A DNA stretch of 64,000 nt from Bactericera cockerelli (Eukaryota > Arthropoda > Insecta > Hemiptera > Triozidae). The position numbers were made by a program, and so were the translations under genes. The notes below the pieces were generated by a model. The model saw nothing but the letters and a program-made list of their open reading frames with translations, was not told the origin of the DNA and did not search any database. This document shows, in pieces, positions 470 to 63,093 of this stretch. The stretch's first letter is position 1. Each line of letters starts with the position of its first letter. The stretch lies in NCBI GenBank assembly GCA_024516035.1, contig CM044966.1, forward strand, positions 20,530,576 through 20,594,575, given 5' to 3'.

Positions 470-3400
470 CCAGTTCCCGAGCGTGTTGCTGCGTCCGTCC
501 ACCTGGTACAGCATCTGCCGGGTCTTGGGGTGGAAGATGTACAGCACGTGTTCGGGTGGCTTCGCCCGGTCTTCCGAATCTTCGTGTGAGTCCGTGAGGT
601 CGACGCGCCCTCGGAAGGGCCCCATCACCACCCCGGCGGGCAGCGCCACCTTGCTCCACACGCCCAGCTGAACATCCGGGATCCCGGACTGGGCGACCAC
701 TGGGAAGGTATTGAAGCGAATTTGAATAAATTTGAATAAAGCGAATAAATGGGCGAATTTGAAGCGTGTTTTTTTAGTGAATAGATAAGTAGAGCGTAAT
801 TTTTATGTGAATAAATAAATAAAAATACATAAATGAATGAATAAATAAGTAAATAAATTAAGTAGGGGCAAAATTAAAGCGTATTTCTTATGTGAATAAA
901 TAAATAAAACTACATAAATGAATGAATAAATAAGTTAATAAATTAAGTAGGGGCAAAATTAGAGCGTATTTTTTTACTTTCCTTATACTATAATAAGGAA
1001 AGTATTGTATTCGTCGAAAATTTGACCTACCCAGCTTTTCACATTTCTGGACGAATCATAGCCTCAGGATACCAAAAAAGTGGTTTTCAGCCATTGGTCC
1101 GTGCGTCTGTCTGTGTGTGTGTGTGTGTGAACAGGATATCTCAAGAACGGTAAAAGCTAGAGACTTGAAATTTGGTATGGTAATTAATTTTATACACCAG
1201 ACGAACCATGAAACTTTTGGTTGAAATCGGCCGCATTCTGCGGCCGCAGGGCCGCAAATATTGGCCGCAAGCACCACTTCTTTGAATTGGTTAAAGATAC
1301 AAAAAAAGTTAGAGAACAACATTTGCTCAGATTAAAAAAATAATAGTGGTTCACTCTGATCATTTTTTTGATATCTTTAACTTTTTGGAAACCGGCCCCA
1401 ATTTACCGGTATTGTAGGGGGACCCGATTGGACTAACTTTTTTATTATTCATCCTAGATGGGGGTTGTGACATATCAAATTAAATGATTTTGAAGTGCTG
1501 ATCACGAATTTGGCATTGATTTTTAGTTATCTGTTACCGTTCACTCACCAGTGGCAGAATTCGACTCCTTTTTGGGAGATAAGGAAAGTCGTGTGATGTT
1601 TACACCAGATTTTTTAGTTAATAGAATAATAGATAAATGAAAATACATGAATGAATTAATAAATAAGTAAATAAATTAAGTAGGGGTGAAATTAGAGCGT
1701 ATTTTTTGAGTGAATAGATAAATAGAGCGTATTTTTAAGTGAAAAATCGGAGCAAAAATTTTTATTTTTTTTTTCACAAAAACGAACACAATGCTTCCGA
1801 TTTCTAATATTAGAAATTTCTCGGAAGTAAAATGAATATATAAATAAATAAGTAGATGAATTAATGAATAAATATGTTGATATATAGGTAAATAAGTATA
1901 TAAATAAATAAATGAATAAATAGATAAATAAATAAACGAGTAAATGAATTACTGAAAGAGTAAATAAATAAATGAATGAATGGATGAATGAATAGATGAA
2001 TGAATGATCGAACGAATAAATAGATAAATAAGTAAATAGATAAATTAATGTATGAATGGATAAATAAATAAATAAATAAACAAATGCAGAGAAAAACCAT
2101 ATAATTTTTAATAAAGTCTCAGTTTGCGCACTGTCTTGAATGGGGAAAATAAACGCTAAGCCCATGACTTAAGAACTCGGAGCCACATTATGAAACAGGA
2201 TTAGTACATAATTATAAGGTAGAAATAGCTTAGAGTATTTTCTACCAGGCGAGGTCCTGATTTTCTACCATAACCACCCGTATTAATGTTTTTGATAATT
2301 TTGCCCCGGAACCGATATACATTACTTCAGGGCTATTATTATTATGAAAAATAAATAAAAAAATATTATGATTGTTATGATTGTTATTATTATTGAAAGA
2401 AAATTTGTTTACCAAACTCGCGAGGACAAGAGAGCAGAGCGTTGTTGATTCTCATGTCTATAACAGCGTCCGCATCGTCCATTAGTTCTTTGTAGATGGT
2501 GATCTTAGGTCCATGCTCCATGGAGAACTGGAATAATAATATTTATTTATTTTTTATTTATTTATTTACACTTTATTAGGTAATAGGACATCTTCTTAAT
2601 AATATATAAATGTCAAAGTCACTGACTGACCACTGACTGATCATCGCTCTACAGCTCAAACCGTAAGTCCTAGGAAGCTGAAATTTGGTAGGTAGCTTTG
2701 TTCTTATAGTCTAGATGTGCAATAAGACGGGATTTTTCGAAACTCCCACTACAACACCTGCCATTGGCGAAAAAGGATTTTTTGCTTTCACGGCCATGCC
2801 TTGGCCCACAAAGCGGGCGACAGCCCGCTAGTAATATATAAATGTCAAAGTCACTGACTGACCACTGACTGACTGATCATCGCTCTACAGCCCAAACCGT
2901 AATACCTAGCGAGCTGAAATTTTGACACAACATTCCTTGCATACTGAATACGTGCAATATAAAAGGATTTTGCAAAATTCCAAACCGTTCCATAGATAGA
3001 GCCCTAAAAGTGCCTAAAACCATCGTGGCGAAGCACGGGTTAACTGCTAGTATTATATACAATACAAATAATTTCAAATGAAAATATAATAGAAGAAAAA
3101 AATAAAGAAAAAATAAATAAATATATAGATAATATATGTCCTAACTAAAGGTCGGGGTTATTGCCTTAGGCAATCTCTTCCACCCAACCCTGTCCATCAG
3201 TTCATCAGTTCCTTGCAGATGGTAATCTTAGGTCAAACGATGAAGATTTTCTGTTAGTTTGAGATTTATCTCCGCCCCGTTTATTGTGATATCAATATTA
3301 ATGTAAAATATGCCTACAAATAATAATAATAACACTCATTAGTAGAAGGTAACCACCAGGCGAGGTGAATGTTCAAAGCATTTTATACCACCTAACTCTC

Positions 3401-6400: not shown

Positions 6401-9400
6401 GTATAATCACAAAATATAGATTTCAAATTGACCTGGAGAGGTTTGTTTTAATACACAAATGTCAAAGCACGGACTAATTTTATACAAATCAGAAGAATAC
6501 GTTATTTTGTTGTTTTCCGTGTGAATATGTTTAAAATAAGCAAATTTTCTCAAATATTTTATTCTGTTTTCACTTTTACAATACCTTACATAGTTTAAAA
6601 AAAAAAAATTAAAAGTGTGGGACACGGTACTTTGAAAATGACAAAAATTTCTCGTTTTTCCCGGCAATTTTCTTGTTTTTATTAAGGCTATATTAGGTTT
6701 AATAGTCCCTCGCCCACTGAATAACCCTTTTTTGTGTTGCAATTTAATTGAGAAACACCCTGCATATTGTCATATATTTCAAGAGCCTCAATGTGTTAAA
6801 TGTATCCACAACTAAAGTCTATTTATTAATACAACATGGCGACGAGGATCGGATGGATAATCAGTGATAAAGAATCGGTAGCGCGATGCGAGAAAGTGTA
6901 AAACTGCTGTGAGTGCTGTAATACTGTGAACCAATCGAAGCTGTAAGTTATTTTGCCGAAGCATTAAAACCAAACCTTAGCACTCAAACATTAAATATGT
7001 CAGGAAGCCAGGTACCAAAGTTCACAGGTGAAAGAATCACAAGTAAAGAAATATATGACACATATAAGCAAAACCTTTCACTACTCACCATATTCATCTT
7101 CCTCATCTTCGCAATAAAAACCTTTCACTACTCACCATATTCATCTTCCTCATCTTCGCCATAAAATCCTTTCACTACTCACCATATTCATCTTCCTCAT
7201 CTTCGCAATAAAAACCTTTCACTACTCACCATATTCATCTTCCTCATCTTCGCCATAAAAACCTTTCACTACTCACCATATTCATCTACCTCATCTTCGC
7301 AATAAAAACCTTTCACTACTCACCATATTCATCTTCCTCATCTTCGGCATAAAAACCTTTCACTACTCACCATATTCATCTTCCTCATCTTCGCCATAAA
7401 ATCCTTTCACTACTCACCATATTCATCTTCCTCATCTTCGCAATAAAAACCTTTCACTACTCACCATATTCATCTTCCTCATCTTCGCCATAAAAACCTT
7501 TCACTACTCACCATATTCATCTACCTCATCTTCGCCATAAAAACCTTTCACTACTCACCATATTCATCTACCTCATCTTCGCCATAAAAACCTTTTCATT
7601 ACTCACCATATTCATCTACCTCATCTTCGCCATAGAAACCTTTCACTACTCACCATATTCATCTTCCTCATCTTCGCCATTAAAACCTTTCACTACTCAC
7701 CATATTCATCTTCCTCATCTTCGCCATAAAAACCTTTCACTACTCACCATATTCATCTTCCTCATCTTCGCCATAAAAACCTTTCACTACTCACCATATT
7801 CATCTTCCTCATCCTCGCCATTAAAACCTTTCACTACTCACCATATTCATCTTCCTCATCTTCGCCATAAAAACCTTTCACTACTCACCATATTCATCTA
7901 CCTCATCTTCGCCATAAAAACCTTTCACTACTCACCATATTCATCTTCCTCATCTTCGCCATAAAAACCTTTCACTACTCACCATATTCTATCATCTTCC
8001 TCATCTTCGCAATAAAAACCTTTCACTACTCACCATATTCATCTTCCTCATCTTCGCATAAAAAACCTTTCACTACTCACCATATTCATCTTCCTCATCT
8101 TCGCCATAAAAACCTTTCACTACTCACCATATTCATCTACCTCATCTTCGCCATTAAAACCTTTCACTACTCACCATATTCATCTTCCTCATCTTCGCCA
8201 TAAAAACCTTTCACTACTCACCATATTCATCTACCTCATCTTCGCCATAAAAACCTTTCACTACTCACCATATTCATCTTCCTCATCTTCGCCATAAAAA
8301 CCTTTCACTACTCACCATATTCATCTTCCTCATCTTCGCATAAAAACCTTTCACTACTCACCATATTCATCTTCCTCATCTTCGCCATAAAAACCTTTCA
8401 CTTCTCACCATATTCATCTTCTTCATCTTCGCCATAAAAACCTTTCACTACTCACCATATTCATCTTCCTCATCTTCGCAATAAAAACCTTTCACTACTC
8501 ACCATATTCATCTTCCTCATCTTCCCATAAAAACCTTTCACTTCTCACCATATTCATCTTCCTCATCTTCGCCATAAAAACCTTTCACTACTCACCATAT
8601 TCATCTTCCTCATCTTCGCCATAAAAACCTTTCACTACTCACCATATTCATCTTCCTCATCTTCGCCATAAAAACCTTTCACTACTCACCATATTCATCT
8701 TCCTCATCTTCGCCATACTCATCCTCATCGTACTCATCATCCTCCGCCTCCATCTCAGCCAGGGACTTGGGACTGAGCGTCTTCAGGACACATCCCTGCA
8801 ACACACAATAATAATAATAATAACAGTTACGGAGTCAGGACACATCCCTGCAACACACAATAATAATAATAATAACAGTTACGGAGTCAGGACACATCCC
8901 TGCAACACACAACCATAATAATAATAACAGTTAGGGAGTTTCAACCAATTCAGGGAACTACAGTCCGACCAGTGAGGTACAGTGAAAGAGTTGGGTGGAA
9001 GAGATTGCCTTAGGCAATAGAGATATTGTACCGAATATCTTTATTTAAAAATGTTCAATTGAAATATTTTCTTCGCTGTCACTACTCTCTTTTCCAATGA
9101 TCAATGCCATCTTCATACCCCAACAACGACTCTCCACTCCGCCCTTTTAGTTAGTACATCATATTGTATTAATGTATTTTCATATTTTCTTGTTTTGATT
9201 ATCATCCATTTTGTAATTTATTTGTTTTCATTATTTGATCGTATTTTTTCCTTCTAATAAAGTATTCAATAATGATAATAGTAATAAGGTCTGAACTATC
9301 TTTGTCGTTACCTTATTTGATAATTTGGTACATAGTCTTCATTTTGTACAACAAAAAATAAGTGATATCTCCAAAAAATACACTTCGTGTTGAGAAAAGG

Positions 9401-10981: not shown

Positions 10982-11041
<60 letters not shown>

Positions 11042-16714: not shown

Positions 16715-16800
16715 GGCAGGTGGGCGGGACTAGATGGGGGTGGAATTTATTGAAGGTGTGTAGAACCTCTGTGGTCTGGTTTTTGAGTAGGTATCGTTTG

Positions 16801-16905
16801 AAGTTTTGAGAAAATCAGGTGATTACTCAAACTGATGTGGCCGATTTTGTTTGATATTTTGAGAAAATCAGGTGATTACTTAAACTGATGTGGCCGATTT
16901 TGTTT
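16801..16905. repeat. Two-copy 54-bp tandem repeat
   Basis: TTTTGAGAAAATCAGGTGAT... is repeated once with one or two mismatches just upstream of PRDM exon 1. No function is evident. Confidence 0.85.
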
Positions 16906-19165: not shown

Positions 19166-19840
19166 TGTCACAACGAGGACTCTAACTTAAAAAAAAAAAA
19201 AACTTACTCTAACTTACCGGGTGGTATCGAAAACGGACAATTGCACAAAAAATATTTAAATAAAAACAACACATTTGAACATTTTATAGCATTTTAACAA
19301 ATGTCGGCCAAATTGGCGCCAAGTTTTGGTTATTTCTGATCATGATTCTATTTGAAAATCCTGTGATGACAAGACATAAGACAATTTATGAAAATAGTAA
19401 AATTCAAACATAATGATAGACATTGTATTAACAAGAATCAAGGCAATAAGTGTATTAAAAAAAGAAAATACTATGAAATACATTGGAGTATTTTTTTAAA
19501 GTAATTTTTACATTGGAGTATTTTTTTATATTTTTTTAAAGAAAAAAAAAGATAATTTTTTTTTTTACAAAAACGAACAAAATCCGATTTCTTATTTAGA
19601 AATTTTAGGAGGTAAAAAAAAAAAAAAAAAAAAATACATTGGAAAACACAGTGTTACAAATTTCTATCAAATTCAACACCTCACCCTTTGGGTTTTGAAG
19701 ATCACATTTCATTTTGAACTTCAGTTGTGAAAATATAGGCATAATCAATGGGGGCAAACGCATAAGAACATCTACTATCATGTAAAACCATCAAAAATCA
19801 CTTTCTTTTCGTTACGAAACAAATGTTCATTTGATTTGAC

Positions 19841-19865
19841 CGGATCACTTGAATGATTCACACAG
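19841..19865. repeat. Isolated piece of the 91-bp array, left flank of the inserted retroelement
   Basis: CCGGATCACTTGAATGATTC followed by ACACAGGCTCCT is array unit sequence (see 21356-23370). It is separated from the rest of the array by the RT element, so the element landed in, or at the edge of, the array. Confidence 0.8.
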
Positions 19866-21228: not shown

Positions 21229-21355
21229 TAACTTATTATTTATCTTACCTATATGTATTGTAAATTGTGTACTTTTACTTTTATACCATTGACGTTGTAT
21301 GAAGCCCTTGGGCATTATATGCAATAAAAATAAATCTTATCTTATCTTATCTATC
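19866..21355 (+). mobile_element. 5'-truncated non-LTR element inserted in the cyclin-Q 3' array
   Basis: The left junction is GGCTCCT|AAACTTTAGACC. The right end is a (TCTTA)n microsatellite tail at 21334-21355, followed directly by ATCGCCTGTAACATG of the array. Within the array GGCTCCTGTATCGCC is continuous, so the insertion replaced about two bases and made no long target duplication. A short A/T microsatellite tail in place of poly(A) is typical of CR1/L2-like elements. Confidence 0.8.
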
Positions 21356-39800: not shown

Positions 39801-39909
39801 TGCTCAATGCACTATCAACTCTGGCTGAATCAATTTACAAACTACATAAATATTTGACAATAACCATAACAAACAAAGCAGTTCTTGAATTTCTTGTTTT
39901 TGTTGCAGC

Positions 39910-45935: not shown

Positions 45936-45950
45936 TACACTTTATTTATA

Positions 45951-46185: not shown

Positions 46186-46199
46186 TAGCTCTTATAACC

Positions 46200-46246: not shown

Positions 46247-46247
46247 T

Positions 46248-46459: not shown

Positions 46460-46475
46460 GAGGCGGGTGGAGGGG

Positions 46476-49400
46476 CTACAGATGGAACAGCTGCCTCACC
46501 CGCCTGAGCAGGGACGGACGCGGCTGGGGCAGACGGAGCAACTCGGTCAGGTAGCTGAGCAGCGCTTTGTCCCCGAGGAGACTCATGTGGTCCGCGCCTG
46601 GGAACTCCCGGTGGAACAGGGGCGGACTCTGGCGGCCCGCCCAGGCGAGGCAGCCTCGTAGGGAGCGCAGGTTCACCGTGCCGTCCCCGTCATCCATCTC
46701 GTACTGGGGGGAGGCGGGGAACTTGCCCGCGCTGCTGTACACGAGCCTGAGTAGTATATAATATGGTGTTATCGCGAAATACGTGCCCATTTTTTTCAAA
46801 GCTCCGTGTGCGCGTGGGTGAGTAAGTGTGTGTGAGCAACAGATTGTGCAGTGGTAAAAAAGTAATATATGAATAGTTGTCTAGAAGAACCACCTATGTG
46901 TTTTTGGGCACTTTTCAGTAGGGTACTTTTAGTAATACCATTATTGCAGCACCCAAATGCTCTGTTTTGACGAAAAAAGACGAATAAAAACGAGTAGGAA
47001 CAAAATTTTTGTATGCTGACTTCTCTAGTGATTCAAGCACTGAGATCATAATTATAACATAGAGGGAACCCGATGTATCAAGATTTGCGTCCAAGAGGGA
47101 CCATCAGCTGATTTCAAAATCAGTGCCGGAGTTGTAGTAATTTTTCTCTCGCGAAAGAGTGGGTACCTAAACGTCCTGATTCTTCTAAAATAATAATTTT
47201 ACTTTTTTCATACTTACATAATTTAGTTATTTTTGTCTTTGCTTCCTCTTTTACTTTTCTTATTTTCTACTTATTATGTAGTAATATAAGATTTGGTATC
47301 TTACGTGAAAATTAAGGATGTTTAGAAATCCGCCATTGCATGAGGTAAACAAAAAATTCAAATAAATTGAACCAATCAGAAGCGGGGATTTGTTGAAAGA
47401 GGGACCATCAGCTGTTCAAAGTTGGACGCATAAATTTGTTCAACTCGAGATAGGCAAGGTTCCCTCTATGTTATATGATCTCAGTGGGTCAAAAGGTAAT
47501 TAATCTATGTCTTTTTATATGTAATGTGTGTAATAATAATAATAATATTTTTTAATTTCATTTATTTATTAAAGTGTATACAACAAAACAGTTGGAGTTC
47601 AACTTATAACATTGTGGCACACCCTATAGAAAACAATTTAAGGGTATGAAAAAACAAAGCTTGAAGTAATAATAATAATAATTATCTTTAGTGGAACTTA
47701 ACCACCAGGCGAGGTTAATGCTCAAAGCATTTTCTGCCACCCAACCCTCAGAGTCTTATTATTATGTGTGGTCACAAATCAAATTAATGAGGAAAAATTC
47801 ATGCACTGGGTGGGATTCGAACCAACGGATCTCTGCGCTACCTGGATTACCAGACTAGCGCGTTAACCACTTAACTACCAGTGCACGTTAAAATATGAAA
47901 AAAATTGAAATCGGAGCAAAAAATATTTTTTTTTCTACAAAAACGAACACAATACTTCCGATTTCTAATATTAGAAATTTCTCGGAAGTAATTAATCTTG
48001 TTCTTTATTTTACTGCACATATTTCTAAGTTTTATTTTAAATTTCTGTTATTAATTTGTTGTTGTTGATTGTTTTGTAAAAAATAAATAAAGTGTAAATA
48101 AATAAAAGATTAAAAATTAAATAAGGGAAAGTGAAAGAAGAAGAATACCAGCCTCCGTGGCGTAAACGGTTGTGACTACTGCCCGTAGTCCAGAGTTCCC
48201 GAGTTCAACTCCCGGCTGGGGCAGACTTTTCGAAGAAAATTCTGTTCCATCCAAACACGTGAGGCTGGCATTTCCGGCCTTCCCAGGCTGGGTGAGGTTA
48301 ATGTGGGTAGATGGTACGATTCCCAGCGAATGGAGGGTAAAACCCCCGTCCTAATCCAGGACGTTAAATCAAATAAAATCGTTGGCGCTAGGAAGGGCAT
48401 CCAGCTGTAAAAAAATGTGCCAAAACCAATCAACCTCAACCATGAGGTTGAACAACGTCGACCCTGCTTGAGCGGGATAAGACAGAGTAAAAGAAGAAGA
48501 AGAAGAATACTCACTTCTTGGGCGTGCTCACATGGAGTCCATGCAAACAGTGCACCTCCACTCCCGGGGGTCTCAAGTCCAGCGCGTACTGCTCCACATC
48601 TTGCCGCATCTCCCAGCCCTGCATGTTGTCCAGGTCCCTGCGGGGACAGAGGAGCGAAAGGGTCAAACATAGTGTAGTCATAAGTATTTTTTTAGGCTAT
48701 ATAGTCATAAGTGTTTTTTTTTTTTTTTTTTAGTTCTAGTCATAAGTGTTTAATATTATTGTGTTTTTTTTTTGTATTTTATTGTAAAAATGGGCTTAAC
48801 TCGTAAACTTGTAAAAAAAAAAAAAAAAAAATATAGTTCATTCAGGCGCGGCCGGAGGGAAATTATAATAATAATAAGACTGAAAATAGTTTTAGTGAGA
48901 TAGACTGAAATGTCTCCTCACTATTAACTTAGAAGCAAAAAACAGTGTATCTACCTCGAAATAATAATAATAAATCATTTGTTTTATTTTTTATATATTT
49001 TTTTTTTTGTTTACAGAGGACCCATCCTAATCCATTTTTTTGGCTTCTAAGAAATTGTTTTGGGGATATGCTTTCCCCCAGACCAAAAAAGGGATTTAAA
49101 GAGTCACCAGAGCGTACTGCTCCACGTCCTGTCGCATCTCCCAGCCCTGCATGTTGTCCAGGTCCCTGCGGGGACAGAGGAGCGAAAGGGTCAAACATAG
49201 TTCAGACGGGGACAGAGGAGCGAAAGGGTCAAACACAGTTCAGACGCGGCCGGAGGGAAATTCTTCTTCTTCTTTTACTCTGTCTTATCCCGCTCAAGCA
49301 GGGTCGACGTTGTTCAACCTCATGGTTGAGGTTCATTGGTTTTGGCACATTTTTTAGGCTGGACGACCTTCCTAACGCCAACGATTCTATTTGATTTAAC

Positions 49401-50549: not shown

Positions 50550-50591
<42 letters not shown>

Positions 50592-53500
50592 AAAAAAAGA
50601 AAAAAGAAAGTCACAGAGTAAGAACTCACTGGAAGTAGTCTCTCAAGTTGGCCATCGTGTAATTCTTCTCCGGAGTCTCCACCAGCACCTCCTCCGGACT
50701 CCAGAAGTGTGGGGAGGGCAGCAGCCAGGCTTGTTTTTATTTTTATTTTAGACCATAAAGTTTTAATGAAGCAGCACCTATCGATTTACGAGTTTATCTG
50801 CCAGTCCACCTCGATATTTTTTTATTTTTTTTTTTTTCATCTTGTGTATGATAGATACCAAAATTTTCAGAAATGGACCCTAAAGTAAGTATTATGTTGT
50901 TTGGGGCCCTTTCCCCTTCTTTTTGAAAAGGAAAAAAAAAAATCAATTGTTGAATAGTACAAGTATGTTTATAAAAAAAGAAAAAAAAGTAAGAACTCTA
51001 ATGTATATTATATTTAATGTTTAATGTATATTATGTAAAATTAAAATAAATAAAGAGTATTTTGTTGAAAAAAAAAAAAAAACTCACTGGAAGTAGTCTC
51101 TCAAGTTGGCCATGGTGTAATTCTTCTCCGGCGTCTCCACCAGCACCTCCTCCGGACTCCAGAAGTGTGGGGAGGGCAGCAGCCAGGCAGTGGAGGGACA
51201 CGTGACCTGGTACACCTTGAGAGTGGACTTGGACAGGACGTACACGCCTAGATCATCCCCTGGGGGTTGAGATAATTTAATTAAATGTATATTTTAGTTA
51301 ATTAAATGTATATATCATTTAAATGCATTTTTTTGTTAATTTATCATTTATTTAAAAATATATATAATTTAATTAAAAGCATTTATCTGTTAATTTATCA
51401 TTAATTAAATATATATATAATTTAATTAAATGCATTTTTTTGTTAATTTATCATTTATCTAAATATATATATAATTTAATTAAAAACATTTATCTGTTAA
51501 TTTATCATTTATTTAAATATATATATAATTTAATTAAATGCATTTATCTGTTAATTTATCATTTAATTAAATATATATATCATTTAATTAAATGCATTTA
51601 TCTGTTAATTTATCATTTAATTATATATATATAATTTAATTATATATATATATAATTTAATTCTTCTCCGGAGTCTCCACCAGCACCTCCTCCGGACTCC
51701 AGAAGTGTGGGGAGGGCAGCAGCCAGGCAGTGGAGGGACACGTGACCTGGTACACCTTGAGGGTGGCCTTCGAAAGGACGTACACGCCTAGATCATCCCC
51801 TGGGGGTTGAGAATTAAATGCATTTATATGTTAATTTATCATTTATATCAATTTAACATGGAAGATGGAGCAGGGGTGCCTTACCATGAAGTTAAAAAAA
51901 AAAAAAAAAAATGAAACCAGAGCAAATCCTTTTCAAAGATGTTTTAATTATTGTTGAAAAAATAAATAAATAAATGTTTGTTCAAAAAAAAATTAATTAA
52001 ATGTATATGTCATTTATCTACCCCTTAGATTTGTTAATTAAATTATGAGGGATAGAATGTTGATAATTCAATGATTTAATCTGTGAGGGATAGAATATTG
52101 ATAGTTAAATTAATTAATCTGTGAGGGATAGAATATTGATAGTTAAATTAATTAATCTGTGAGGGATAGAATATTGATAGTTAAATGAATTAATCTGTGA
52201 GGGATAGAATATTGATGGTTAAATTAATTAATCTGTGAGGGATAGAATATAGATAGCTAAATTAATTAATCTGTGAGGGATAGAATATTGATAGTTAAAT
52301 TAATTAATCTGTGAGGGATAGAATATTGATAGTTAAATTAATTAATCTGTGAGGGATAGAATATAGATAGCTAAATTAATTAATCTGTGAGGGATTAGAA
52401 TATTGTATAGTTTAAATTAATTAATCTGTGAGGGATAGAATATAGATAGCTAAATTAATTAATTTGTGAGGGATAGAAATTAGATAGCTAAATTAATTAA
52501 TCTGTGAGGGATAGAAAGTGTGGGGAGGGCAGCAGCCAGGCAGTGGAGGGACACGTGACCTGGTACACCTTGAGGGTGGCCTTCGAAAGGACGTACACGC
52601 CTAGATCATCCCCTGGGGGTCGAGATAATTTAATTAAATGTATATATTATCATTTAATTAAATGCATTTTTCTATTAATTTATCATTTATTTAAAAATAT
52701 ATATAATTTAATTAAAAGCATTTATCTGTTAATTTATCATTAATTAAATATACAGTATGTTTCAGAAAAGGTGGCCACCCCCTCGTAATTTTTGAACGCG
52801 ACGGAATTTTTCAATTCTGTAAAGTCCTAAGTATAGGAAGTGCCCTATGGCCCATCCTGTGGTCATATTTATTTTTGGCCCCGGTCGGCCCTTCCGGCTT
52901 TTAGGCCATATTTTTTCATTTTTCTCGAGAATTTTAAATGGAATGCTATATTTTTTATTCCTGTTAATTAAAATCCAAGTTAGGCTGAGTATAATAAGCT
53001 TTTAAAATTTTCAAAAACCTTATCAGGGGCGGAGCTAGTAGGGTGCAAGGTTCAAAACTGTTACACGCTGTATTTCAGCGTTAGTTAGATTTTTTAGTAC
53101 TTTTTCTATTTTCATTGGTTCAAAATATTGTTTTACACCATATGAAATCAAAAAAATATTCTTGTTTACATGTAATCAGGGTCATAGTAAGGTTTTTGTA
53201 AAAGTACTTTTTTTCTGACGTCAATTTTTCCGTAAATTTATGGTGTTCTCGAAATTGGCATTTTTAGAGGTGAAAGTCTGCAGTGACATATGTTTTTTAT
53301 GATTGAAACCAAAAGAAAACTTAACGGAGAAGCGATTAAGATCATAAAAAAAGCCATTTAACCTGCTAGTTTTTTCAGGACAGTGTCCGGTAAAGTGGGT
53401 GAATTTCGTATTGGATTTTTTGTTGTTGAAATTTTGGTTTAATATCGCGTTTCAACTGCATGGTCATATCACCCTCCATTCGCAGGAAACTCACCAACCT

Positions 53501-56500
53501 GCTAAACACATTTATCTCACCCAGCCCGAGTTAGGCCGGAATGCCAGCATCACGAAGTCTTCAACTCGCTGGACGTTGCTTAACTTCGGTGATCCTACAA
53601 GAATCGTTGCATTCAAAGCGCCATCGGACTGACTCCAGAATGATTGACAATGTGTTTTCTACAGATTTTACCAACTTACCAACTAAAATTGTTTCAAGAG
53701 GGGACCCTAGGCCGACTTTAGAAGTAGCATTATCCGATAACTATTTTTGATACAACTTGAACTTTGAAAAGTGAAAAAGAGAGAGAGAGAGAGAAAAAAA
53801 AAAATATCCGGCACTGATTTAGAAGAAATAATTCTCATTTATATTCGCATTTAGTTATGTTTATTGAAGTATTATTCCGTTATTAGGTATTATTTATTTT
53901 CTATGCCAATTGTGTTTCCTCAACAACAAAAAATCCAATACGAAATTCACCCACTTTACCGGACACTGTCCTGAAAAAACTAGCAGGTTAAATGGCTTTT
54001 TTTATGATCTTAATCGCTTCTCCGTTAAGTTTTCTTTTGGTTTCAATCATAAAAAACATATGTCACTGCAGACTTTCACCTCTAAAAATGCCAATTTCGA
54101 GAACACCATGAATTTACGGAAAAATTGACGTGAGAAAAAAAGTACTTTTACAAAAACCTTACTATGACCCTGATTACATGTAAACAAGAATATTTTTTTG
54201 ATTTCATATGGTGTAAAACAATATTTTGAACCAATGAAAATAGAAAAAGTACTAAAAAATCTAACTAACGCTGAAATACAGCGTGTAACAGTTTTGAACC
54301 TTGCACCCTACTAGCTCCGCCCCTGATAAGGTTTTTGAAAATTTTAAAAGCTTATTATACTCAGCCTAACTTGGACTTTAATTAACAGGAATAAAAAATA
54401 TAGCATTCCATTTAAAATTCTCGAGAAAAATGAAAAAAATATGGCCTAAAAGCCGGAAGGGCCGACCGGGGCCAAAAATAAATATAACCACAGGATGGGC
54501 CATAGGGCACTTCCTATACTTAGGACTTTACAGAATTGAAAAATTCCGTCGCGTTCAAAAGTTACGAGGGGGTGGCCACCTTTTCTGAAACATACTGTAT
54601 ATATAATTTAATTAAATGCATTTTTTTGTTAATTTATCATTTATTTAAAATATATATATAATTTAATTAAAAACATTTATCTGTTAATTTATCATTTAAT
54701 TAAATATATATATAATTTAATTAAATGCATTTATCTGTTAATTTATCATTTAATTAAATATATATATAATTTAATTAAATGCATTTATCTGTTAATTTAT
54801 CATTTAATTAAATATATATATAATTTAATTAAATGCATTTATCTGTTAATTTATCATTTAATTAAATATATATATAATTTAATTAAATGCATTTATCTGT
54901 TAATTTATCATTTAATTAAATGTTTATATCATTTAATTAAATGCATTTATTTGTTAATTTATCATTTAATTAAATGTTTATATCATTTAATTAAATGCAT
55001 TTATCTGTTAATTTATCATTTAATTAAATATATATACATATAATTTAATTAAATGCATTTATCTGTTAATTTATCATTTAATTAAATGTTTATATCATTT
55101 AATTATATGTATATATAATTTATTTTTATAATATCTTAAAAAAAAAAATTATATTTTTTTAAAGAAGCAAAAGTGTTACAAAAAACCTCTCACCTACAGC
55201 AAACACCTTGACCGCCTTCACCGAGCCCCCCCAGGGCGCCGCCAGAGTGACCAGGGACCGGATGAACTTGCTCTTCCACGCGGCGCTCTGCCGCTGCAGG
55301 AAGTAGAGACACATGAGGGAGCCCATGCTGTGGGCGAGCAGTACCACCGGGGTGGACCCGTTCAGGTCGTACGTCTCCTCGATGAGGGCTTTCAGATTCA
55401 CGAAGTACGAGGAGTGCTCGTCTGAAGAGATTGAAAAATAAATGTGAATTCGCCTGGTGCAAACACGTGGAAAAACAACAGAAAAAAAAAAAAACCAATT
55501 GTTTGTCTAAAGGGGGAATTCTAAGGTCGGGTTCTACGAAAAACACCTGAAAAACACAAAAAACGTTAGTTCCAAAGGATTCGTCAAGATAGCGCCAGTA
55601 GAGTTTAGAGTAAAAGAGTTTAGAGCAAAACTCTACTGGTGCTATCTTGACGAATCCATTGGAACTAACGTTTTTCGTGTTTTTCAGGTGTTTTTTAGGT
55701 TAGGTGTTTTTCGTAGAACCCGACCTAATTGTTTGTCTAAAGGGGGAATTCTAATGGTTGTGGATTATATTTATATTTTCACAATGTACATAGATAGTAG
55801 GTTTTTTTATGAATTAAACATAGATAGTAGGTTTTTTTAAGGCGAATCAATGTGTTTACAAAAGTTGTTAATTAAATATTTGAGTGTAGTAATTAAAAAC
55901 ACCGCTAGCGCTGCTCCGCCGCTGCAGGAAGTAGAGACACATGAGGGAGCCCATGCTGTGGGCGAGCAGTACCACCGGGGTGGACCCGTTCAGGTCGTAC
56001 GTCTCCTCGATGAGGGCTTTCAGATTCACGAAGTACGAGGTGTGCTCGTCTGAAGAGATTGGAAAATACATGTGAATTCGCTTTTTTTTATTAGGAGGAC
56101 AAAGTACAGGTAACAGTATAAAATAAAGAAAAGAAGAAGAAAAAAAAAAAAAAAAACAAACAAACAACAACAAACAAATGACAAAATAAATAAGTAAAAA
56201 AAAAAGAAAATAAAACAAAACTCTACTGGCGCTATCTTGACGAATCCTTTGGAACGAACGTTTTTCGTGTTTTTCAGGTGTTTTTTAGGTTGGGTGTTTT
56301 TCGTAGAACCCGACCTAATTGTTTGTCTAAAGGGGGAATTCTAATAATTGTGGATTATATTTATATTTTCACAATGTACATAGTTATGAATTAAACATAG
56401 ATAGTAGGTTTTCTTTAAGGCGAATCAATGTGTTTACAAAAGTTACTAATTAAATATTTGAGTGTAGTAATTAAAAACACCGCCAGCGCCGCTCTGCCGC

Positions 56501-57444
56501 TGCAGGAAGTAGAGACACATGAGGGAGCCCATGCTGTGGGCGAGCAGTACCACCGGGGTGGACCCGTTCAGGTCGTACGTCTCCTCGATGAGGGCTTTCA
56601 GATTCACGAAGTACGAGGTGTGCTCGTCTGAAGAGATTGAAAAATAAATGTGAATTCGCCTGGTGCAAACACGTGGACGAACAACAGAAAAAATAAAAAC
56701 TAATTATAATAATAATTTCTTTTCTTTTCTCTCGCTTTTCAAAGGCTTTAATTTAAATAATTATTCTTGTTTGAACTATAATATTATACTGCTATTTATT
56801 TTTTTAGTTATTATGTAATAATTGTAGTTTATGTTTGTAAAAAAATGTTGTATTTTCGCATTATTTTATGCCAACCTTTGTAAAATCATATTACAATAAA
56901 ATAAAATTGAATTGAATAATAATAATAGTTTATTTATTTATTTTCTTTATAAAGAAACATTTATACAAAGGTACTTCTACTAAGCTTTGAAGAGCTTCTA
57001 AGAGAATTGTTTGTCTAACGGGGAATTCTAATGGTTGTGGATTATATTTATATTTTCACAATGTACATAGTTATGAATTAAACATAGATAGAAGTTCTTT
57101 TAAGGCGAATCAAGGTGTTTACAAAAGTTATTAATTAAATATTTCAGTCTAGTAATTAAATACACCTCGCCCAACTTTCGGCCCATTTCCTAAAGTTAAA
57201 AATGTAGGTCACGTGTTTACAAAAGTTATTAATTAAATATTTGAGTGTAGTAATTAAAAACACCGCTAGCGCTGCTCTGCCGCTGCAGGAAGTAGAGACA
57301 CATGAGGGAGCCCATGCTGTGGGCGAGCAGTACCACCGGGGTGGACCCGTTCAGGTCGTACGTCTCCTCGATGAGGGCTTTCAGATTCACGAAGTACGAG
57401 GAGTGCTCGTCTGAAGAGATTGAAAAATAAATGAATAGTTGTCT

Positions 57445-57478
<34 letters not shown>

Positions 57479-60400
57479 CATTTCAAAAATTGAACCTATG
57501 TGTAAATCTTGAATCACTAGAGAAGTCAGCATACAAAATTTTTGTTCCTACTCGTTTTTATTTGTATTTTTTCGTCAAAACAGAGCAGAAGAAATCTCAG
57601 GTAAAACTACCTATGTGCACTTGTTGAACTAAAATCAGTCTCGCCACGTTGGGGCATAGGATAAGAAGATAGTTGCGCGTGATGGTATTACTAAAAGTAC
57701 CCTACTGAAAAGTGTATTATTAAAAGTGCTGCATTAATGGTATTACTAAAAGTACCCTACTGAAAAGTGCCCTAAAACACATAGGTGGTTCTTCTAGACA
57801 ACTATTCAAATGTGTGTTTTTATTTTTTATTGTTCCTTTAGAATTTAATGTTTTTATAACATGTTTGTATATAATTTGTAAAAAGGTATTCCGTTAATAA
57901 ATGATAAATGTACCTGAATACCGGGCATTATTATTATTAAAAAAAAAGGGGGGGGGGGGGGGGGGGGAGATGGTTTTCAGTTTCCAAAATTCAGTCCAAA
58001 TAAAGCTTGATCCAAATGTTTATAAATAAAAAATAGGGTTGGCCTCTAGAGAAAGTTCATTTTGTTTGTTTGTTTTTCTTTAATTAATTATGTATTTAAA
58101 AAAAAAAAATATTATTAAGGTAGGATCACACTATATGGCACAGATGCCATATTTTCTATGGCGAGAAAAAAAAAACGAATGGCACAAATAATATATGGCA
58201 CTCACACAATGCCATATTATAATGTGGCAAAAAACTCTATGGCATTGTATGCCTTCCCCCTTGCCTTAGACAAGCCTGCCAGTCCTCACCATATCATATT
58301 GTAGACCATGTGTGTGATGAAGCACTCACACAAATGCCAAAGATCCTGCCATACGTCTATGGCACCATAGAAAAAACTTGTCGCCATAAACCTATGGTTC
58401 TATGGTCATGTAAAAAAAGACCGATCACACGCTATGGCAAGGGAGATTGCCATATTATATGTTGCTCTGCCATATCGCGTGATCCTACCTTTAGAATAAA
58501 AATTTGATATTATTACTATTTCTGTTTTATTTCTCATATTATACATGGTAACAATTAACATCATCTATGGGCTAGGATATAGCAAACATAGAAGGATTAC
58601 AATGTTGTTAAGGAGATTTGAGGAGATGAGATATTATGAAGAGGATGAGTGAGAGAGGAATCTTCTGAGCAGGCGACAGTTTTCCAGGAGGACGGATTTC
58701 TGGATTTTGTAGACTAGATTCTGTGGCAGTTGTATTTTCTTTGTATGGACATAGAAGCTGGAATGTATCAGCCCATTTGTTGACATGACTACAGGGACAA
58801 CTTCAACATTGGTCATGTTCCACATGCAGGTGATTTCTGTGGCGAGGTCTTGATATTTGTGGATCTTGGTTGCTGTGGTGTTGAGAATGTTGTGATCTGC
58901 AGGATGGGCGATGTCAATGAGTTTCACAGTTTTTTGTATTTTGTCAATTAGTACAATGTCAGGTCTGTTAGCCTGGATGTTGCGGTCTGTGATTACAGTT
59001 GAGTCCCAGTATAGCTTCATGTTTTCATTTTCAAGTATAGGTTCTGGGTGATACTTATAGTACTCTGTTTTGTCTTTTGTCAGGTTGAATTTCAAGGCTA
59101 GGTACTGGTGAACAATCTTGGCGGAAGAATTGTGTCTCTGGAGATAGTCAGAGTTGGCGAGTATCGAGCAGCTGGACGTGATATGTTGGATGATATGTTA
59201 TTATTATTATTATTATTTAGCATTTAAATATACCTACATTCTTGTATATTATTAATTATCGATGTTTTTAATCATTAATAAAAAATAATTCGAAATTATT
59301 TCAAAAAAACCAAACGAAATCAAAACTTTATAAATATATACATTATAGTTAATAGAAAGTGAAAAACATAAAATTGTAGTCACTATACGAGTAGTTCATA
59401 GGACTTTTTCTTTTTATTTAATTACTGTGCATTATTTGCACTTGTATGGATTCTATACTTATGGATTCTTATTTGCACTTTTCATGCACATCTAGTACAA
59501 CTTCTCACTTTTCTGTTGATACTGTATAAAATAGAGAGATTAGTTGATGGCATGGATATACAGAACTATTACCTGCTGATGAGAGTAAATAAGCTCGAAG
59601 CAGCTGTCAAGGTGTGTTCTGATATTTATGTACATCTAGTACAACCTCTCACTTTTCTGTTGATACTATAGCACTTACTTGGAGCTTTACGGAAGTCATA
59701 CGGGGCACCTCGCAGTGACAGGTCCCTCTCATAGGAGAGTTTACTCAGGGCGTCGGCTATGGGCGAGAAGTAGGACCCTACCCGGAGCTGGGGCGTTCAC
59801 CCGTGGACGCCCCAGCGCAGCTCAAGAAGGCAGATGTTCGGTTGGGTGGAAGAGATTGCCATTGGCAATAACCCCGCCCTTTAGTTAGGACATATGTATA
59901 TATATATATTTTTTTCTTGTTTATATTATTAATACTGTCAATTTTATATTTAATTTTTACCATTGTTTGTCTGTATACAGGGTGTCCCACCAAACTTGGA
60001 CACCTCAAATTACTCGGCCCCTGAAAGAGTTTTTGAAAAATAAAAAAATCTAGGGTACATGTGCTAATTATGCAGTTTCAGTTATGAAATTTTTTTTATA
60101 CAGGGTGGTTCAAAAGTCAGAAATTGAGGTGTCAACTTTCGATTTTTAAATGGATCGACCTGAATTTTATTTGATAATTTTACTTCTAAATGATTCCTGA
60201 GTACTTTTTTAAACAAAAATATTACATACAGGGTGGTTTTTTTTCGACCAATTTTTTTTCTTAATCTTGAATAACTCAAGTTCGGTTAATTTTTTCGATA
60301 ACAAGAATAGAATGTGTTTGTGTAATGAATACACGCACTTTCAATTGGCATCAAAAAAAATTATACAGGGTGGTTCACAAGTGAAATAATGACTTGATTT

Positions 60401-63093
60401 TTTTTAAAACCGAGTTTTTTTAATTTTTTATTTAGGATTAATAATTCTCGTCTAATTTTACACATTTTTCGTCAGTCATATCGAAAAACAAAACTAAAGT
60501 GTTGTACAGGGTGAGACATAATTTTTTTGTAACACCCTGTATATGGGCAGTCAAAGAGACGCAAAATTAAACATAAAGACTAAATATGCAAGAAAAACTT
60601 TGATTTTTAATTAAACTAAAAAGTTATGGTGTTTTAACTAATATTGTCGCATGGACCACCCTGTAGATATTTTCTTAAACCATCATATGGGTAGTCGAAA
60701 CTGTCTAAAATTCAACGAGGAGTCCAAATCTGAAAGAAAAAAAATGAATTTCAAAAGCCATGTTCAATTTTGTGTCAACACCTACCTACTTTTTATTTCA
60801 AGTTTTAAAATCATTCAGTGTGGACACCAAATTGAAAATGGCTTCAAATTAGTGTTTTTTACTTGTTTTTCCCACATGATTCGAAGTGTTCGTTGAATTT
60901 TATACAACTTAGAGTACCTACATGATAGTTTAAGAAAATATCTACAGGGTGGTCCATGCGACAATATTAGTTAAAACACCATAACTTTTTAGTTTAATTA
61001 AAAATCAAAGTTTTTCTTGCATATTTAGTCTTTATGTTTAATTTTGCGTCTCTTTGACTGCCCATATACAGGGTGTTACAAAAAAATTATGTCTCACCCT
61101 GTACAACACTTTAGTTTTGTTTTTCGATATGACTGACGAAAAATGTGTAAAATTAGACGAGAATTAATAATCCTAAATAAAAAATTAAAAAAACTCGGTT
61201 TTAAAAAAAATCAAGTCATTATTTCACTTGTGAACCACCCTGTATAAATTTTTTTGATGCCAATTGAAAGTGCGTGTATTCATTACACAAACACATTCTA
61301 TTCTTGTTATCGAAAAAATTAACCGAACTTGAGTTATTCAAGATTTAGAAAAAAAATTGGTCGAAAAAAAACCACCCTGTATGTAATATTTATGTTTAAA
61401 AAAGTACTCAAGCATCATTTAGAAGTAAAATTATCAAATAAAATTCAGGTCGATCCATTTAAAAATCGAAAGTTGACACCTCAATTTCTGACTTTTGAAC
61501 CACCCTGTATAAAAAAAAATTCATAACTGAAACCGCATAATTAGCACATGTACCCTAGATTTTTTTATTTTTCAAAAACTCTTTCAGGGGCCGAGAAATT
61601 TGAGGTGTCCAAGTTTGGTGGGACACCCTGTATATTATGTTCTGCTAATAAAGAGTTTCTAAATAAATAAATAAAATGTTGAAGAATGGGATCGGATGTC
61701 CCAAGAATTAGTTCAGAAGCTCATCCAAAGCATGCCGAAGCGATTGGACACCCTACTTGGTGTTAGAGGATGCAATAAAAGGTATTGAGCCCACGTATTC
61801 CAGAAATTTTTCAAAATCGCGAAATTTTAAATCTTTGTTTTTTGTCACTTTTTTTGACATTGTGTGATAATTGTCAAAAAATAAAGTTTTCCCTTTGAAG
61901 TAGCCCAAAAAAATGACTTGTTTCATGTTCCCTACAAAAATACCTATCTTTCACATCATGTTTCATCAAAACAATTTATACAGGTCAAGGTGAAAAACAG
62001 GGTTAAAAAAGCGTTCCCCTAATTGTGGTCCCCAGTGTACATTATCTTAATATATAAATGTCAAAGTCACTGACTGATCATCGCTCTACAGCCTAAACCG
62101 TAAGTCCTAGGAAGCTGAAATTTGGTAGGTAGCTTTGTCTTATAGTCTAGATGTGCAATAAGACGGGATTTTTCGAAATTCCCACTACAACACCTGCCAT
62201 TGGCGAAAAAGGATTTTTTGCTTTCACGGCCATGCCTCGGGTCGCAAAGCGGGCGACAGCCCGGTAGTAGTTAATAGAAAGTGAAAAACATAAAATTGTA
62301 CAGTCACTATAGTTCATAATAGCACTTACTTGGAGCTTTACGGAAGTCATACGGGGCACCTCGCAGTGACAGGTCCCTCTCATAGGAGAGTTTACTCAGG
62401 GCAGTGACAGGTCCCTCTCATAGGAGAGTTTACTCAGGGCGTCGGCTATGGGCGAGAAGTAGGATCCTACCCGGACCGAAGGATCCAGATTCTCACAGAT
62501 TTTTAATTTTATTTATTTTTTGTGTTTTTTTTTTCTTATATTTTTTGCCTTGGGCAACAGTATTTTTTCAAATTTTCCATATACCTTTCTTTCATGATTT
62601 ATTTTCCAATAATCATGTACTTTTTGATTTATTTTTTTCAGAAACTGCTTCTCATATCGTTTTTTCGCTATACCCATCACCTATAATTTTTATTTAACTT
62701 AACTACTTCAAGCTGTTCTATTATTTATTTTCAATTATTCTATATATATAATCAATTATTTGCTTCTATGTATAATTGTATATATTTTATTTTTATTGCC
62801 AACCTTTTGTAACATAACATTACAAATAAAACGCTTATTCTATTCTATAGTTCATAGCACTTACTTGGAGCTTTACGGAAGTCATACGGGGCACCTCGCA
62901 GTGACAGGTCCCTCTCATAGGAGAGTTTACTCAGGGCGTCGGCTATGGGCGAGAAGTAGGAGCCTACCCGGACCGAAGGATCCAGCCACTCCACGGCATC
63001 TGTGTGGCCAAACCCGGGGATGCGGATGGAGACACCCGGGGAGTTGGAGGTGGTGCGTGTCACATTGTTATAGGTGAGTCGGAGATTGTCAAT
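46476..63093 (-). CDS. PLA2G15: Lysosomal phospholipase A2 (PLA2G15)/LCAT-like, last five exons
   Basis: Exons in transcription order: 63093-62865, 55421-55194, 51259-51088, 48637-48515, 46746-46476 (stop TAG). Phases 0,1,1,2,2 fit at every junction and give 340 residues. Vertebrate PLA2G15 is slightly over 400, so the N-terminus with signal peptide lies right of the window. Family landmarks: IDNLRLTYNN, RIPGFG, GSYF, RGAPYDFRKAPNE (oxyanion side), LLAHSMGS with nucleophile Ser, LAAPWGG, WLLPSPHFWSPEEV, GWEMRQD, PPGVEVHCLHG, DDGDGTVNLRS with catalytic Asp, and GADHMSL with catalytic His. The product is expected to be a soluble, N-glycosylated acyl hydrolase/transacylase of lysosomes or secretions; NVT and NYT sequons are present. 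PLA2G15 is preferred over LCAT by the motif set. Every exon has at least one partial copy in neighbouring introns or 3' flank. Confidence 0.92.
46870..47037 (-). mobile_element. Fragment of the GAATAGTTGTCTAGA MITE
   Basis: Shares GAATAGTTGTCTAGA, AACCACCTATGTG and TTTGTATGCTGACTTCTCTA with 57433-57807 in inverted order. It is cut on the right by the MITE at 47038. Confidence 0.65.
47038..47486. mobile_element. MITE (CACTGAGATC family), copy 2
   Basis: Same TIRs as 36791-37234 with the interior in the opposite orientation. Flanks do not show a clean target duplication (GATTCAAG left, GGTCAAAA right). It is nested in the MITE fragment above. Confidence 0.8.
47690..47886 (-). mobile_element. 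tRNA-like SINE, family 2
   Basis: Minus-strand head GGTTAACGCGCTAGTCTGGT, box B GGTTCGAATCCC. Confidence 0.65.
47888..47992 (+). repeat. Terminal fragment of the hairpin-ended repeat
   Basis: Nearly identical to the last 100 bp of 29020-29755. Confidence 0.55.
48148..48508 (+). mobile_element. tRNA-like SINE, family 3, full length
   Basis: Complete copy ending in (AAG)n. Its tail stops about six bases before the exon 4-type donor (48514/48513) of the PLA2G15-like gene, so the intron's 5' end is almost directly SINE. Confidence 0.75.
49105..49260 (-). pseudogene. Partial duplicate of the PLA2G15-like GWEMRQD exon with acceptor
   Basis: About 57 nt of exon (QDLDNMQGWEMRQDVEQYA-coding) plus the acceptor CGCAG|GGACC and 40 nt of intron are repeated about 500 bp upstream of the working exon. 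The intron part GGGGACAGAGGAGCGAAAGG is repeated once more in tandem at 49207. The exon part has synonymous differences (GACGTG for GATGTG). Confidence 0.88.
49264..49400 (-). mobile_element. SINE family 3, 3' fragment, inverted
   Basis: (CTT)n then ACTCTGTCTTATCCCGCTCA, the reverse of the family 3 tail. Confidence 0.6.
49695..49725 (-). pseudogene. Short copy of exon end and donor of the PLA2G15-like NLRDYFQ exon
   Basis: AACTCACTGGAAGTAGT is the last ~15 nt of the exon with its donor. Two further such copies are at 50306-50336 and 50347-50377, all preceded by the same intron text CAGAGTAAG. They mark the scatter of this exon border. Confidence 0.7.
49722..50297 (+). repeat. GGTTGGGTGGAAGAG repeat split by a MITE
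   Basis: Left part 49722-49873, right part 50260-50297 ending TTAATAAAGTGTAAAAAAAA. The AATAAA followed 6 nt later by poly(A) shows the family ends like a polyadenylated retrotranscript. Confidence 0.6.
49874..50259. mobile_element. MITE with 26-bp terminal inverted repeats
   Basis: Left AGGGCTCTAGTATCAAAACC(GGCTCTC) and right inverse (GAGAGCC)GGTTTTGATACTAGAGCCCT, flanked by TA. The interior holds a 109-bp tandem duplication (TCAATTTATTTGATTGTGGA unit at 49958 and 50058). Confidence 0.85.
50397..50412. repeat. Poly(G) run
   Basis: A G run of 16 in intron 4; see 11153-11172. Confidence 0.9.
50611..50730 (-). pseudogene. PLA2G15-like exon 3-type duplicate, 3' part with donor
   Basis: About 100 nt of the WLLPSPHFWSPEE..NYT exon with its donor TTCCA|GTGAGT. 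It ends abruptly at GCCAGGC|TTG without an acceptor. Differences from the working exon include a synonymous ACG/ACT change and Met/Ile at the NYTM codon. Confidence 0.9.
51280..51660. repeat. AT-rich ~48-52-bp tandem array, part 1
   Basis: Units of TTTAATTAAATGCATTTATC..TGTTAATTTATCATT. The same array continues at 52620-52750 and, beyond the palindrome, 54600-55130. Confidence 0.9.
51661..51799 (-). pseudogene. PLA2G15-like exon 3-type duplicate, 5' part with acceptor
   Basis: About 139 nt of exon with the acceptor CCCCCAG|GGGATG but no donor. It shares with 52515-52612 the changes CTT TCG AAG GCC ACC for CTG TCC AAG TCC ACT, four of five silent, with one Ser to Ala. Confidence 0.9.
52036..52516. 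repeat. 38-bp tandem array (about 12 copies)
   Basis: Unit CTGTGAGGGATAGAATATTG..ATAGTTAAATTAATTAAT with few variants. It abuts the exon duplicate at 52515. Confidence 0.9.
52515..52612 (-). pseudogene. PLA2G15-like exon 3-type duplicate, 5' part, second copy
   Basis: About 98 nt of exon plus acceptor, joined at GGATAGA|AAGTGTGGGG to the 38-bp array. It carries the same substitutions as 51661-51799, so one was copied from the other or from a common diverged source. Confidence 0.9.
52753..54597. mobile_element. 1.85-kb foldback element with ~677-bp arms, TA-flanked
   Basis: The arms 52753-53429 and 53920-54597 are almost perfect inverse copies. The ends are CAGTATGTTTCAGAAAAGG and the inverse, with TA on both sides (52751-52752, 54598-54599). 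CAGT ends at a TA target suit the Tc1/mariner superfamily. The centre (53430-53919) contains an inverted SINE family 3 fragment. The element interrupts the AT-rich array. Confidence 0.9.
53437..53610 (-). mobile_element. SINE family 3 fragment in the palindrome centre
   Basis: Shares CACCCAGCC and GGAATGCCAGCATCACGAAG with other inverted copies. Confidence 0.55.
54600..55130. repeat. AT-rich tandem array, part 2
   Basis: About ten units of the 48-52-bp repeat seen at 51280-51660. The two parts flank the foldback element. Confidence 0.9.
55497..55754. mobile_element. Palindromic MITE flanked by a 28-bp direct repeat
   Basis: The palindrome runs from GGTCGGGTTCTACGAAAAAC to GTAGAACCCGACC with arms of ~90 nt around AGAGTAAAAGAGTTTAGAGC. 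AATTGTTTGTCTAAAGGGGG(AATTCTAA) occurs on both sides (55497-55524 and 55727-55754). That is too long for a normal target duplication and fits local segment duplication. Half of the palindrome recurs at 56218-56330. Confidence 0.8.
55915..56049 (-). pseudogene. PLA2G15-like nucleophile exon duplicate 1
   Basis: Contains the acceptor and first ~135 nt of the exon, including the AHSMGS codons, then diverges before any donor (reads RRSSASGVF). Part of a ~600-bp segment repeated three times together with flanking intron DNA. Confidence 0.9.
56482..56627 (-). pseudogene. PLA2G15-like nucleophile exon duplicate 2
   Basis: Same breakpoint as duplicate 1 and the same upstream text GTGTAGTAATTAAAAACACC, confirming copying of a common unit. 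Confidence 0.9.
57262..57410 (-). pseudogene. PLA2G15-like nucleophile exon duplicate 3
   Basis: Third copy, with the GGAGTGCTCG form of the working exon where copies 1 and 2 have GGTGTGCTCG. The MITE at 57433 starts 20 bp past its acceptor. Confidence 0.9.
57433..57807. mobile_element. MITE with GAATAGTTGTCTAGA ends
   Basis: 15-bp perfect terminal inverted repeats. Contains a poly(T) run near the left end and an internal repeat of ACTAAAAGTACCCTACTGAA. Confidence 0.75.
57949..57967. repeat. Poly(G) run
   Basis: 19 G residues following an A-run. Confidence 0.9.
58118..58490. mobile_element. PIF/Harbinger-like MITE with TTA target duplication
   Basis: TIRs AGGTAGGATCAC and GTGATCCTACCT, flanked by TTA on both sides (58115-58117, 58491-58493). 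Three-base TWA duplications are typical of PIF/Harbinger. The interior is built from ATATGGCA/TGCCATAT motifs in both orientations. Confidence 0.82.
58620..59200 (-). pseudogene. C-terminal fragment of a retroelement polyprotein (endonuclease-like)
   Basis: The 153-residue frame has KLYWDSTVITDRNI, NRPDIVLIDKIQK, KLIDIAHPADHNI, KYQDLATEI and VVPVVMSTNG. The RPD...IDIA pattern resembles the restriction-like endonuclease at the C-terminus of R2/RTE-annotated polyproteins. The frame continues weakly upstream to about 59200 and no RT is present. A 5'-truncated relic in PLA2G15 intron 1. Confidence 0.6.
59679..59787 (-). pseudogene. Duplicate of PLA2G15-like RGAPYDFRKAP exon, 3' part with donor
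   Basis: About 108 nt of exon ending in the donor CTCCAA|GTAAGTG. It lacks the acceptor and the IDNLRLTYNN part and changes to unrelated GC-rich sequence at CCGGAGCTGG. Confidence 0.9.
59835..59960 (+). repeat. Copy of the GGTTGGGTGGAAGAG dispersed repeat
   Basis: Begins GGTTGGGTGGAAGAGATTGC and contains GGCAATAACCCCGCCC. Confidence 0.55.
59978..61630. mobile_element. 1.65-kb palindrome built of CAGGGTG modules, TA-flanked
   Basis: The ends are CAGGGTGTCCCACCAAACTT and its inverse, with TA outside both (59976-59977, 61631-61632). The arms pair over about 740 nt (59978-60717 with 60889-61630) and weakly through most of the loop. ACAGGGTGG or its inverse recurs inside each arm about every 100-150 bp, as if MITE ends had been stacked. 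No ORF. Confidence 0.9.
62045..62267 (+). mobile_element. Helitron-like non-autonomous repeat, copy 4
   Basis: Subfamily A; the 3' end reads GCCCGGTAG with one change in the CTAG terminus. Confidence 0.5.
62330..62490 (-). pseudogene. Two fused partial duplicates of the RGAPYDFRKAP exon
   Basis: 62330-62401 is exon end plus donor. At 62402 the sequence jumps back by ~40 nt and repeats AGTGACAGGTCCCTCTCATA through GGACCGAAGGATCCAG. The flanking text is the same as in front of the working exon (AGTTCATA..GCACTTAC). Confidence 0.9.

Follow-up and report, generated by a model that had tools for sequence, protein, structure and literature searches.

In this work, we analyzed a 64,000-bp stretch of the Bactericera cockerelli genome (hereafter the window; C12:20530576-20594575 of a 565-Mb assembly of 1032 contigs), in which sequence spanning exon-intron borders is repeatedly duplicated beside the exons of three genes. 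Such splice-border repeats are real, they are frequent among the exons that we sampled, and they are of a known kind, the mirages described in lancelets, here in a new lineage. Border-crossing copies (the parts of real exons included) total 9.1 kb, or 14% of the window, and 13 of 16 border motifs are repeated in the window, in a second copy of the region or in both. The explanation that we favor, with a probability of roughly 0.7, is a local tandem duplication that leans toward GC-rich DNA and occurs everywhere, is purged in exons, persists where it crosses a border and then grows as a minisatellite.

Results

Border copies in the PRDM-like, cyclin-Q and PLA2G15 genes

The three genes all lie on the minus strand, as do the copies and arrays of their exons. 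PLA2G15, which matched PDB 4x90, is 77% identical to its homologue in Diaphorina citri and 76% to that in Cacopsylla; for cyclin-Q the identities to these psyllid homologues are 75% and 79%. The PRDM-like gene was modeled by reading only, and the frame of its PR-domain exon lies at 458..799 (PF21549, E 5.3e-8). Between the cyclin-Q and PLA2G15 genes there is a long open frame with BTB and BACK domains (39889-41628). The evidence for copies came from a tandem repeat search (TRF), self-comparison, tblastn with homologues, the raw sequence and motif counts, the latter tolerating 1-4 mismatches and including the real exon's own border. Exons are labeled p (PRDM-like), q (cyclin-Q) and A-E (PLA2G15). 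Counts are given as window/second region, the second region being C12:20.06-20.14 Mb, which is collinear with the window and mostly 88-97% identical to it in the blocks outside the arrays. The set of 16 borders was drawn from 18 motifs, leaving out the q6 body, since it is no border, and the E acceptor, since it had no match in the second region.

The original prediction, that partial copies or tandem arrays sit beside most exons of these genes, was borne out for most of the exons that it named. In the PRDM-like gene, exon 3 in its numbering (8690..8796, edges located and sequence read) is copied at both sides, as claimed. The exon end and its donor GTGAGT form an array of 34-35 units of 47 bp at 7070..8717 (TRF 35.0 copies, 96% match; donor motifs 34/14), and the acceptor with the first exon bases is present in three 52-bp copies at 8783..8939 (3/1). 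The exon ending at 16402 is likewise copied, its end and donor standing in two 75/76-bp copies at 16286..16436 (p1 donor, 2/1). In contrast to the prediction, a search of 104 kb gave no copy of the exon at ~470-700. The window also contains LINE reverse transcriptase frames, of which one separates the PRDM-like exons at 8.8 and 16.4 kb.

For cyclin-Q, copying had been claimed at exons 1, 3 (both sides), 4, 5 and 6. The donors of q1, q3 and q5 and the acceptor of q4 are indeed repeated. A 17-bp duplication lies over the q1 donor at 32660..32710 (2/2), and a partial q3 copy at 29854..29992 carries the donor without the acceptor (donor 2/4). The q4 acceptor and first exon bases make up a 2.6-kb array of 51/70-bp units at 25491..28128 (45/45), and the q5 exon end with its donor GTAAGT is repeated at 24411..25049 (13/27). 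The claim is weaker on the acceptor side of q3, where the copy has 59 bp with 2-3 exon bases only (motif 1/1), and it takes another form in q6, the last coding exon, whose array at 21352..23333 has a 91-bp unit of exon body and downstream sequence with no splice border (body motifs 22/21). No copy was seen at q2, the q4 donor or the q5 acceptor. A LINE reverse transcriptase frame (PF00078) lies at 19839-21228, and its first ~33 bp match the q6 array, as if the element were inside it.

All five PLA2G15 exons were predicted to be copied, and this held for A to D. Partial exon A copies with the donor lie at 62319..62494, and an additional one was found at 59668..59793 by self-comparison, tblastn with homologues and motif count (donor 3/1). 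Three partial exon B copies at 55832..57470 have the acceptor and no donor (acceptor 4/7). Exon C is copied on both sides, with the acceptor in two partial copies at 51663..52625 (3/3) and with the donor in one at 50629..50730 (5/16). Exon D has a partial copy with the acceptor at 49099..49201 (2/1), and its donor, single in the window, has five motifs in the second region (1/5). There was no copy of the exon B donor or the exon A acceptor in the window or the second region (1/1 each). The border of exon E is without a copy (acceptor motif 1/0), the sole match being a 36-bp copy of its 3' part. Two large inverted repeats also lie in this part of the window, one at 59974-61634 (757-bp arms, 97% complementary, 147 bp between them), which also matches C12:20.050 Mb at 97%, and one at 52872-54477 (558-bp arms, 96%).

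The prediction that copies keep a donor or an acceptor and rarely both was confirmed, and no copy with both borders exists for p3, q3, A, B, C or D, the six exons for which both border motifs were counted. The copies found lie within ~3.2 kb and carry intron sequence beside the exon part.

The second copy of the region

Copy number is unlike between the window and the second region at 10 of the 16 borders, five of which are single in one of the two. Alignments of the states before and after duplication could be made for two young cases, the 52-bp duplication at the p3 acceptor and the 76-bp one at the p1 donor, both single in the second region, and their junction homology, as read, is 1 bp and 0-1 bp, respectively. 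A 6.4-kb block (window 51078-57433) is 99.8% identical to the second region, which suggests a recent exchange or conversion.

Kinase matches, used for the sample described below, are often paired on one contig in either orientation (by eye, among the matches listed). This pairing makes it likely that, for many loci, both haplotypes are present in the assembly. The two region copies may be haplotypes too, a segmental duplication being the alternative.

Frequency at exons sampled elsewhere

We further sampled 44 kinase exons elsewhere in the assembly, chosen without regard to repeats, with ~1 kb on each side. They were picked by eye among the 134 matches listed (131 of 747 candidates scored), each being a partial domain, one per apparent pair, with no in-frame stop (exception: L049, with one TGA); the sample is a subset of the matches meeting these criteria, and several of its exons belong to one gene. 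Splice sites were predicted with a simple frequency matrix, the domain edge being used where there was no good site, and 'intron' in this test means all sequence around the exon in its 2.2-2.8 kb locus.

Edge-crossing copies were found at 9 of the 44 exons and at 12 of the 88 edges; among these 12, the domain edge stands in for the acceptor of L044 and L050, and the acceptor of L060 is counted at a 6-base margin and drops out at 8. The affected loci lie on six contigs (C2, C3, C4, C5, C11 and C12), and three of the nine exons (L043, L050 and L060) have arrays at both edges, above the expectation for independent edges (P 0.019). In the first 40 exons, acceptors and donors are crossed equally often (6 of 40 each), which speaks against a step bound to a single splice site. 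Inverted local copies are few in the same 40 exons (1 of 80 edges, 1.6% of flanking bases).

In these 40 exons, local copies cover 17.6% of the flanking bases and 0.6% of the 6573 bases of exon interiors, taken as lying more than 60 bp from an edge. Among the three options of the original prediction, this gives the clearest support to the one in which selection decides where copies are tolerated. Flanking coverage rises with GC content from 1.9% at 0.1-0.2 through 6.7%, 10.4% and 17.1% to 19.9% at 0.5-0.6 and 49.9% at 0.6-0.7; the trend fails at the extremes, with 11.4% of 219 bases covered below 0.1 and about none of 331 bases at 0.7 and above. Averaged over the kinase loci, coverage is 0.166, compared with 0.266 for the window. 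It is patchy: three 10-kb stretches taken arbitrarily, one of them at the end of a contig, range from 0 to 0.24 per 2.25-kb piece, and six stretches close to the window or to the second region range from 0 to 0.82.

A myosin gene on C8 (L070, C8:7839700-7841800) has two partial copies of an exon start with its acceptor, upstream of the full exon, and the matching place at 8.83 Mb of C8 has one match among the matches listed (65 of 167 candidates scored). The L070 copies are joined to a TATTC simple repeat, so that a single array combines repeat expansion with exon-edge copying. Partial myosin matches on C11 were left out of the count, given that alternative exons occur in insect muscle myosin.

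Placement of copies relative to exon edges

The original prediction started from the premise that random intronic repeats would not often sit on exon edges. This is too strong, because local duplications are so common in these loci. Local copies (at most 2 kb away, at least 28 bp) take in 10 of 21 edges in the window vs 24.5% of its noncoding positions (circular-shift P 0.036), and over 12 settings the result runs from 4 to 11 of the 21 edges, with P from 0.03 to 0.53. This test is biased upward because three of the edges are PRDM edges chosen since the prediction had named them, and we rejected a claim of enrichment from the window alone, the sample being biased and the effect weak (4 of 21, P 0.53 at other settings).

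In the kinase sample, the tests of edge targeting disagree. Base by base there is no edge excess (12 of 80 edges vs the 17.6% of flanking bases, 40 exons), and when whole arrays are rotated, 11 of 44 families cross an edge vs 9.8 expected (P 0.38). Rotation may, in our view, mask edge effects, since the end of an array on the exon side stays fixed while the array grows away from it. With a null built on the length of the founding unit, 12 of 48 families cross an edge vs 4.0 expected for uniform placement (44 exons, P 0.0002) and 5.2 for GC-weighted placement (P 0.002, ~2.3-fold); this null was added after the rotation result had been seen, and its GC weights were taken from the same loci. Exon-proximal ends of copies also pile up just within exons, where the first 60 exonic bp hold 14 of them vs an average of 5.75 for each of the first eight 60-bp bins of intron (40 exons, Poisson P 0.0025). 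Pairs involving an exon edge could stay detectable for longer, and such a divergence bias may contribute; under identity cut-offs, 9 of 80 edges vs 10.8% of flanking bases remain at 95% identity or more, and 6 of 80 vs 5.0% at 98%.

Discussion

Taken together, these results point towards duplication that is largely indifferent to exon edges and is sorted afterwards by selection. This reading builds on direct observations (the copies, their single splice sites, their near absence in exons, an increase with GC that holds between the extremes, and the differing copy numbers of the two region copies), and it would proceed as follows. A local tandem duplication would double a stretch of ~50-110 bp, at times of several hundred bp, striking introns and exon edges alike and leaning to GC-richer DNA. 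The first duplication may arise by end joining or template switching. Both young cases, as read, have next to no homology at their junctions (0-1 bp). Where the duplication falls in an exon or takes in a whole exon, it would be removed by selection because the protein is altered; where it crosses a border, it would be tolerated because the exon with its splice site stays whole, and the extra copies would end up in the intron and persist. There they would expand and contract as a minisatellite, possibly by unequal exchange or slippage, and splicing would presumably ignore them. In agreement with intact exons, the cyclin-Q and PLA2G15 proteins of Diaphorina citri align exon by exon to the window, without additional residues where borders are repeated. 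Besides the failure of the GC trend at its extremes, three observations speak against this reading, being unpredicted unless loci differ in rate: the excess under the founder-length null, the pile-up of ends within exons and the exons with both edges affected.

Those three observations are what a duplication process directed at exon edges would account for, in which breaks or template switching would occur where transcription, splicing or a step in GC stalls replication, and selection would only trim the outcome. In its quantitative form, an active process in psyllids would duplicate exon edges 2-3 times more than GC-matched intron, often at both edges, and lengthen introns with spare splice sites. 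We regard this as the main rival and, in either wording, as rather unlikely. Such a process, which the original prediction had proposed, is not needed to explain coverage, although the ~2.3-fold excess of families remains. Coverage of the edges is not above that of the flanks, there is no excess when whole arrays are rotated, acceptors and donors are affected equally, and the sample has 44 exons with predicted splice sites.

It is much harder to maintain that the copies are kept for a function, as decoy, alternative or recursive splicing sites. The GT or AG is intact in nearly all units of four arrays (34/34 for the p3 donor, 43/45 for the q4 acceptor, 12/13 and 26/27), as a function would have it. 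These dinucleotides are, however, preserved slightly better than the remaining positions in one array only and not clearly so in the other three, which gives no clear sign of use. Besides, counts swing from 1 to 5 or from 34 to 14 between the region copies, and with units of 32, 47, 52, 70, 76 and 91 bp many copies would shift the frame if used. A functional role is thus very improbable in our estimation.

The original prediction also considered that the assembly had introduced the copies. An assembly that apparently retains both haplotypes at many loci is imperfectly resolved, which would favor such errors. The misassembled genes mentioned in passages of the Diaphorina citri curation paper (PMC5502364) do not, in those passages, concern splice borders. 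We nevertheless hold this explanation to be equally implausible, because the diverged second region carries arrays of the same kinds in other numbers and with base differences of its own; moreover, like arrays occur at kinase exons on the six contigs and at the myosin exon on C8.

Least probable of all is an origin through RNA or mobile elements (retrocopies or Helitron-like capture), for which LINE reverse transcriptase frames in the window, one of them between PRDM-like exons, could speak, and against which stand the intron sequence beside the exon part, the short distance between copies, the confinement of all 14 genome matches of the PLA2G15 family to the two regions, the almost uniformly direct orientation at kinase loci and the plain tandem nature of the two datable duplications.

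The psyllid arrays resemble ordinary intronic minisatellites, whose tandem units measure some tens of bp, are homogenized and vary in copy number; what sets the psyllid arrays apart is that exon sequence and a splice site form part of the unit. This is the situation described for lancelet mirages in the Adh3, globin, troponin C and PGBD5 genes (PMC3087553, PMC3902484; PGBD5 and troponin C in PMC3902484). As these papers describe them, the repeat unit spans the intron-exon border at the 5' or 3' side, the AG or GT signals are repeated and copy number varies between haplotypes; regular splicing is reported to be undisturbed, with RT-PCR on lancelet genes (PMC3087553), and somatic instability has been reported for the Adh3 mirage. 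In the same way, psyllid units span the exon-intron border in the three genes, the kinase loci and the myosin gene L070; they occur at 5' and 3' borders alike, at both in L043, L050 and L060, and mostly keep the AG or GT. A possible counterpart to the variation between lancelet haplotypes is the difference at 10 of 16 borders between the region copies, which may themselves be haplotypes. The kind is therefore known already, and the new mode of intron growth that had been proposed reduces to the mirage of lancelets.

Several features are nonetheless particular to the psyllid. It is an insect; mirages were sampled exon by exon away from the original locus (9 of 44); arrays reach 45 copies and occur along with partial copies spaced 0.5-3 kb apart; and the near absence within exons was measured. 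Lancelet splicing was assayed by RT-PCR, whereas the psyllid repeats are known here from genomic sequence. No insect mirage is named in the titles and abstract openings of the literature searched, which at that level included PMC3296678 (Drosophila intron gain) and PMC4202315 (Daphnia). A related process is intron gain by tandem genomic duplication, in which a short duplication reportedly carries a splice signal (PMC3443670, PMC4974935). The psyllid's short tandem duplications also carry a splice signal, but here it is existing introns that become longer.

Were the kinase sample representative of other exons, mirages would be common in an insect. They would then be a tractable source of intron growth, their number differing between two copies of one locus, and, following the proposal made for lancelet globins, of intron gain. 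They would also lead to wrong exon counts when genes are annotated, and would provide many natural cases of the spliceosome choosing a single site from dozens that are nearly identical.
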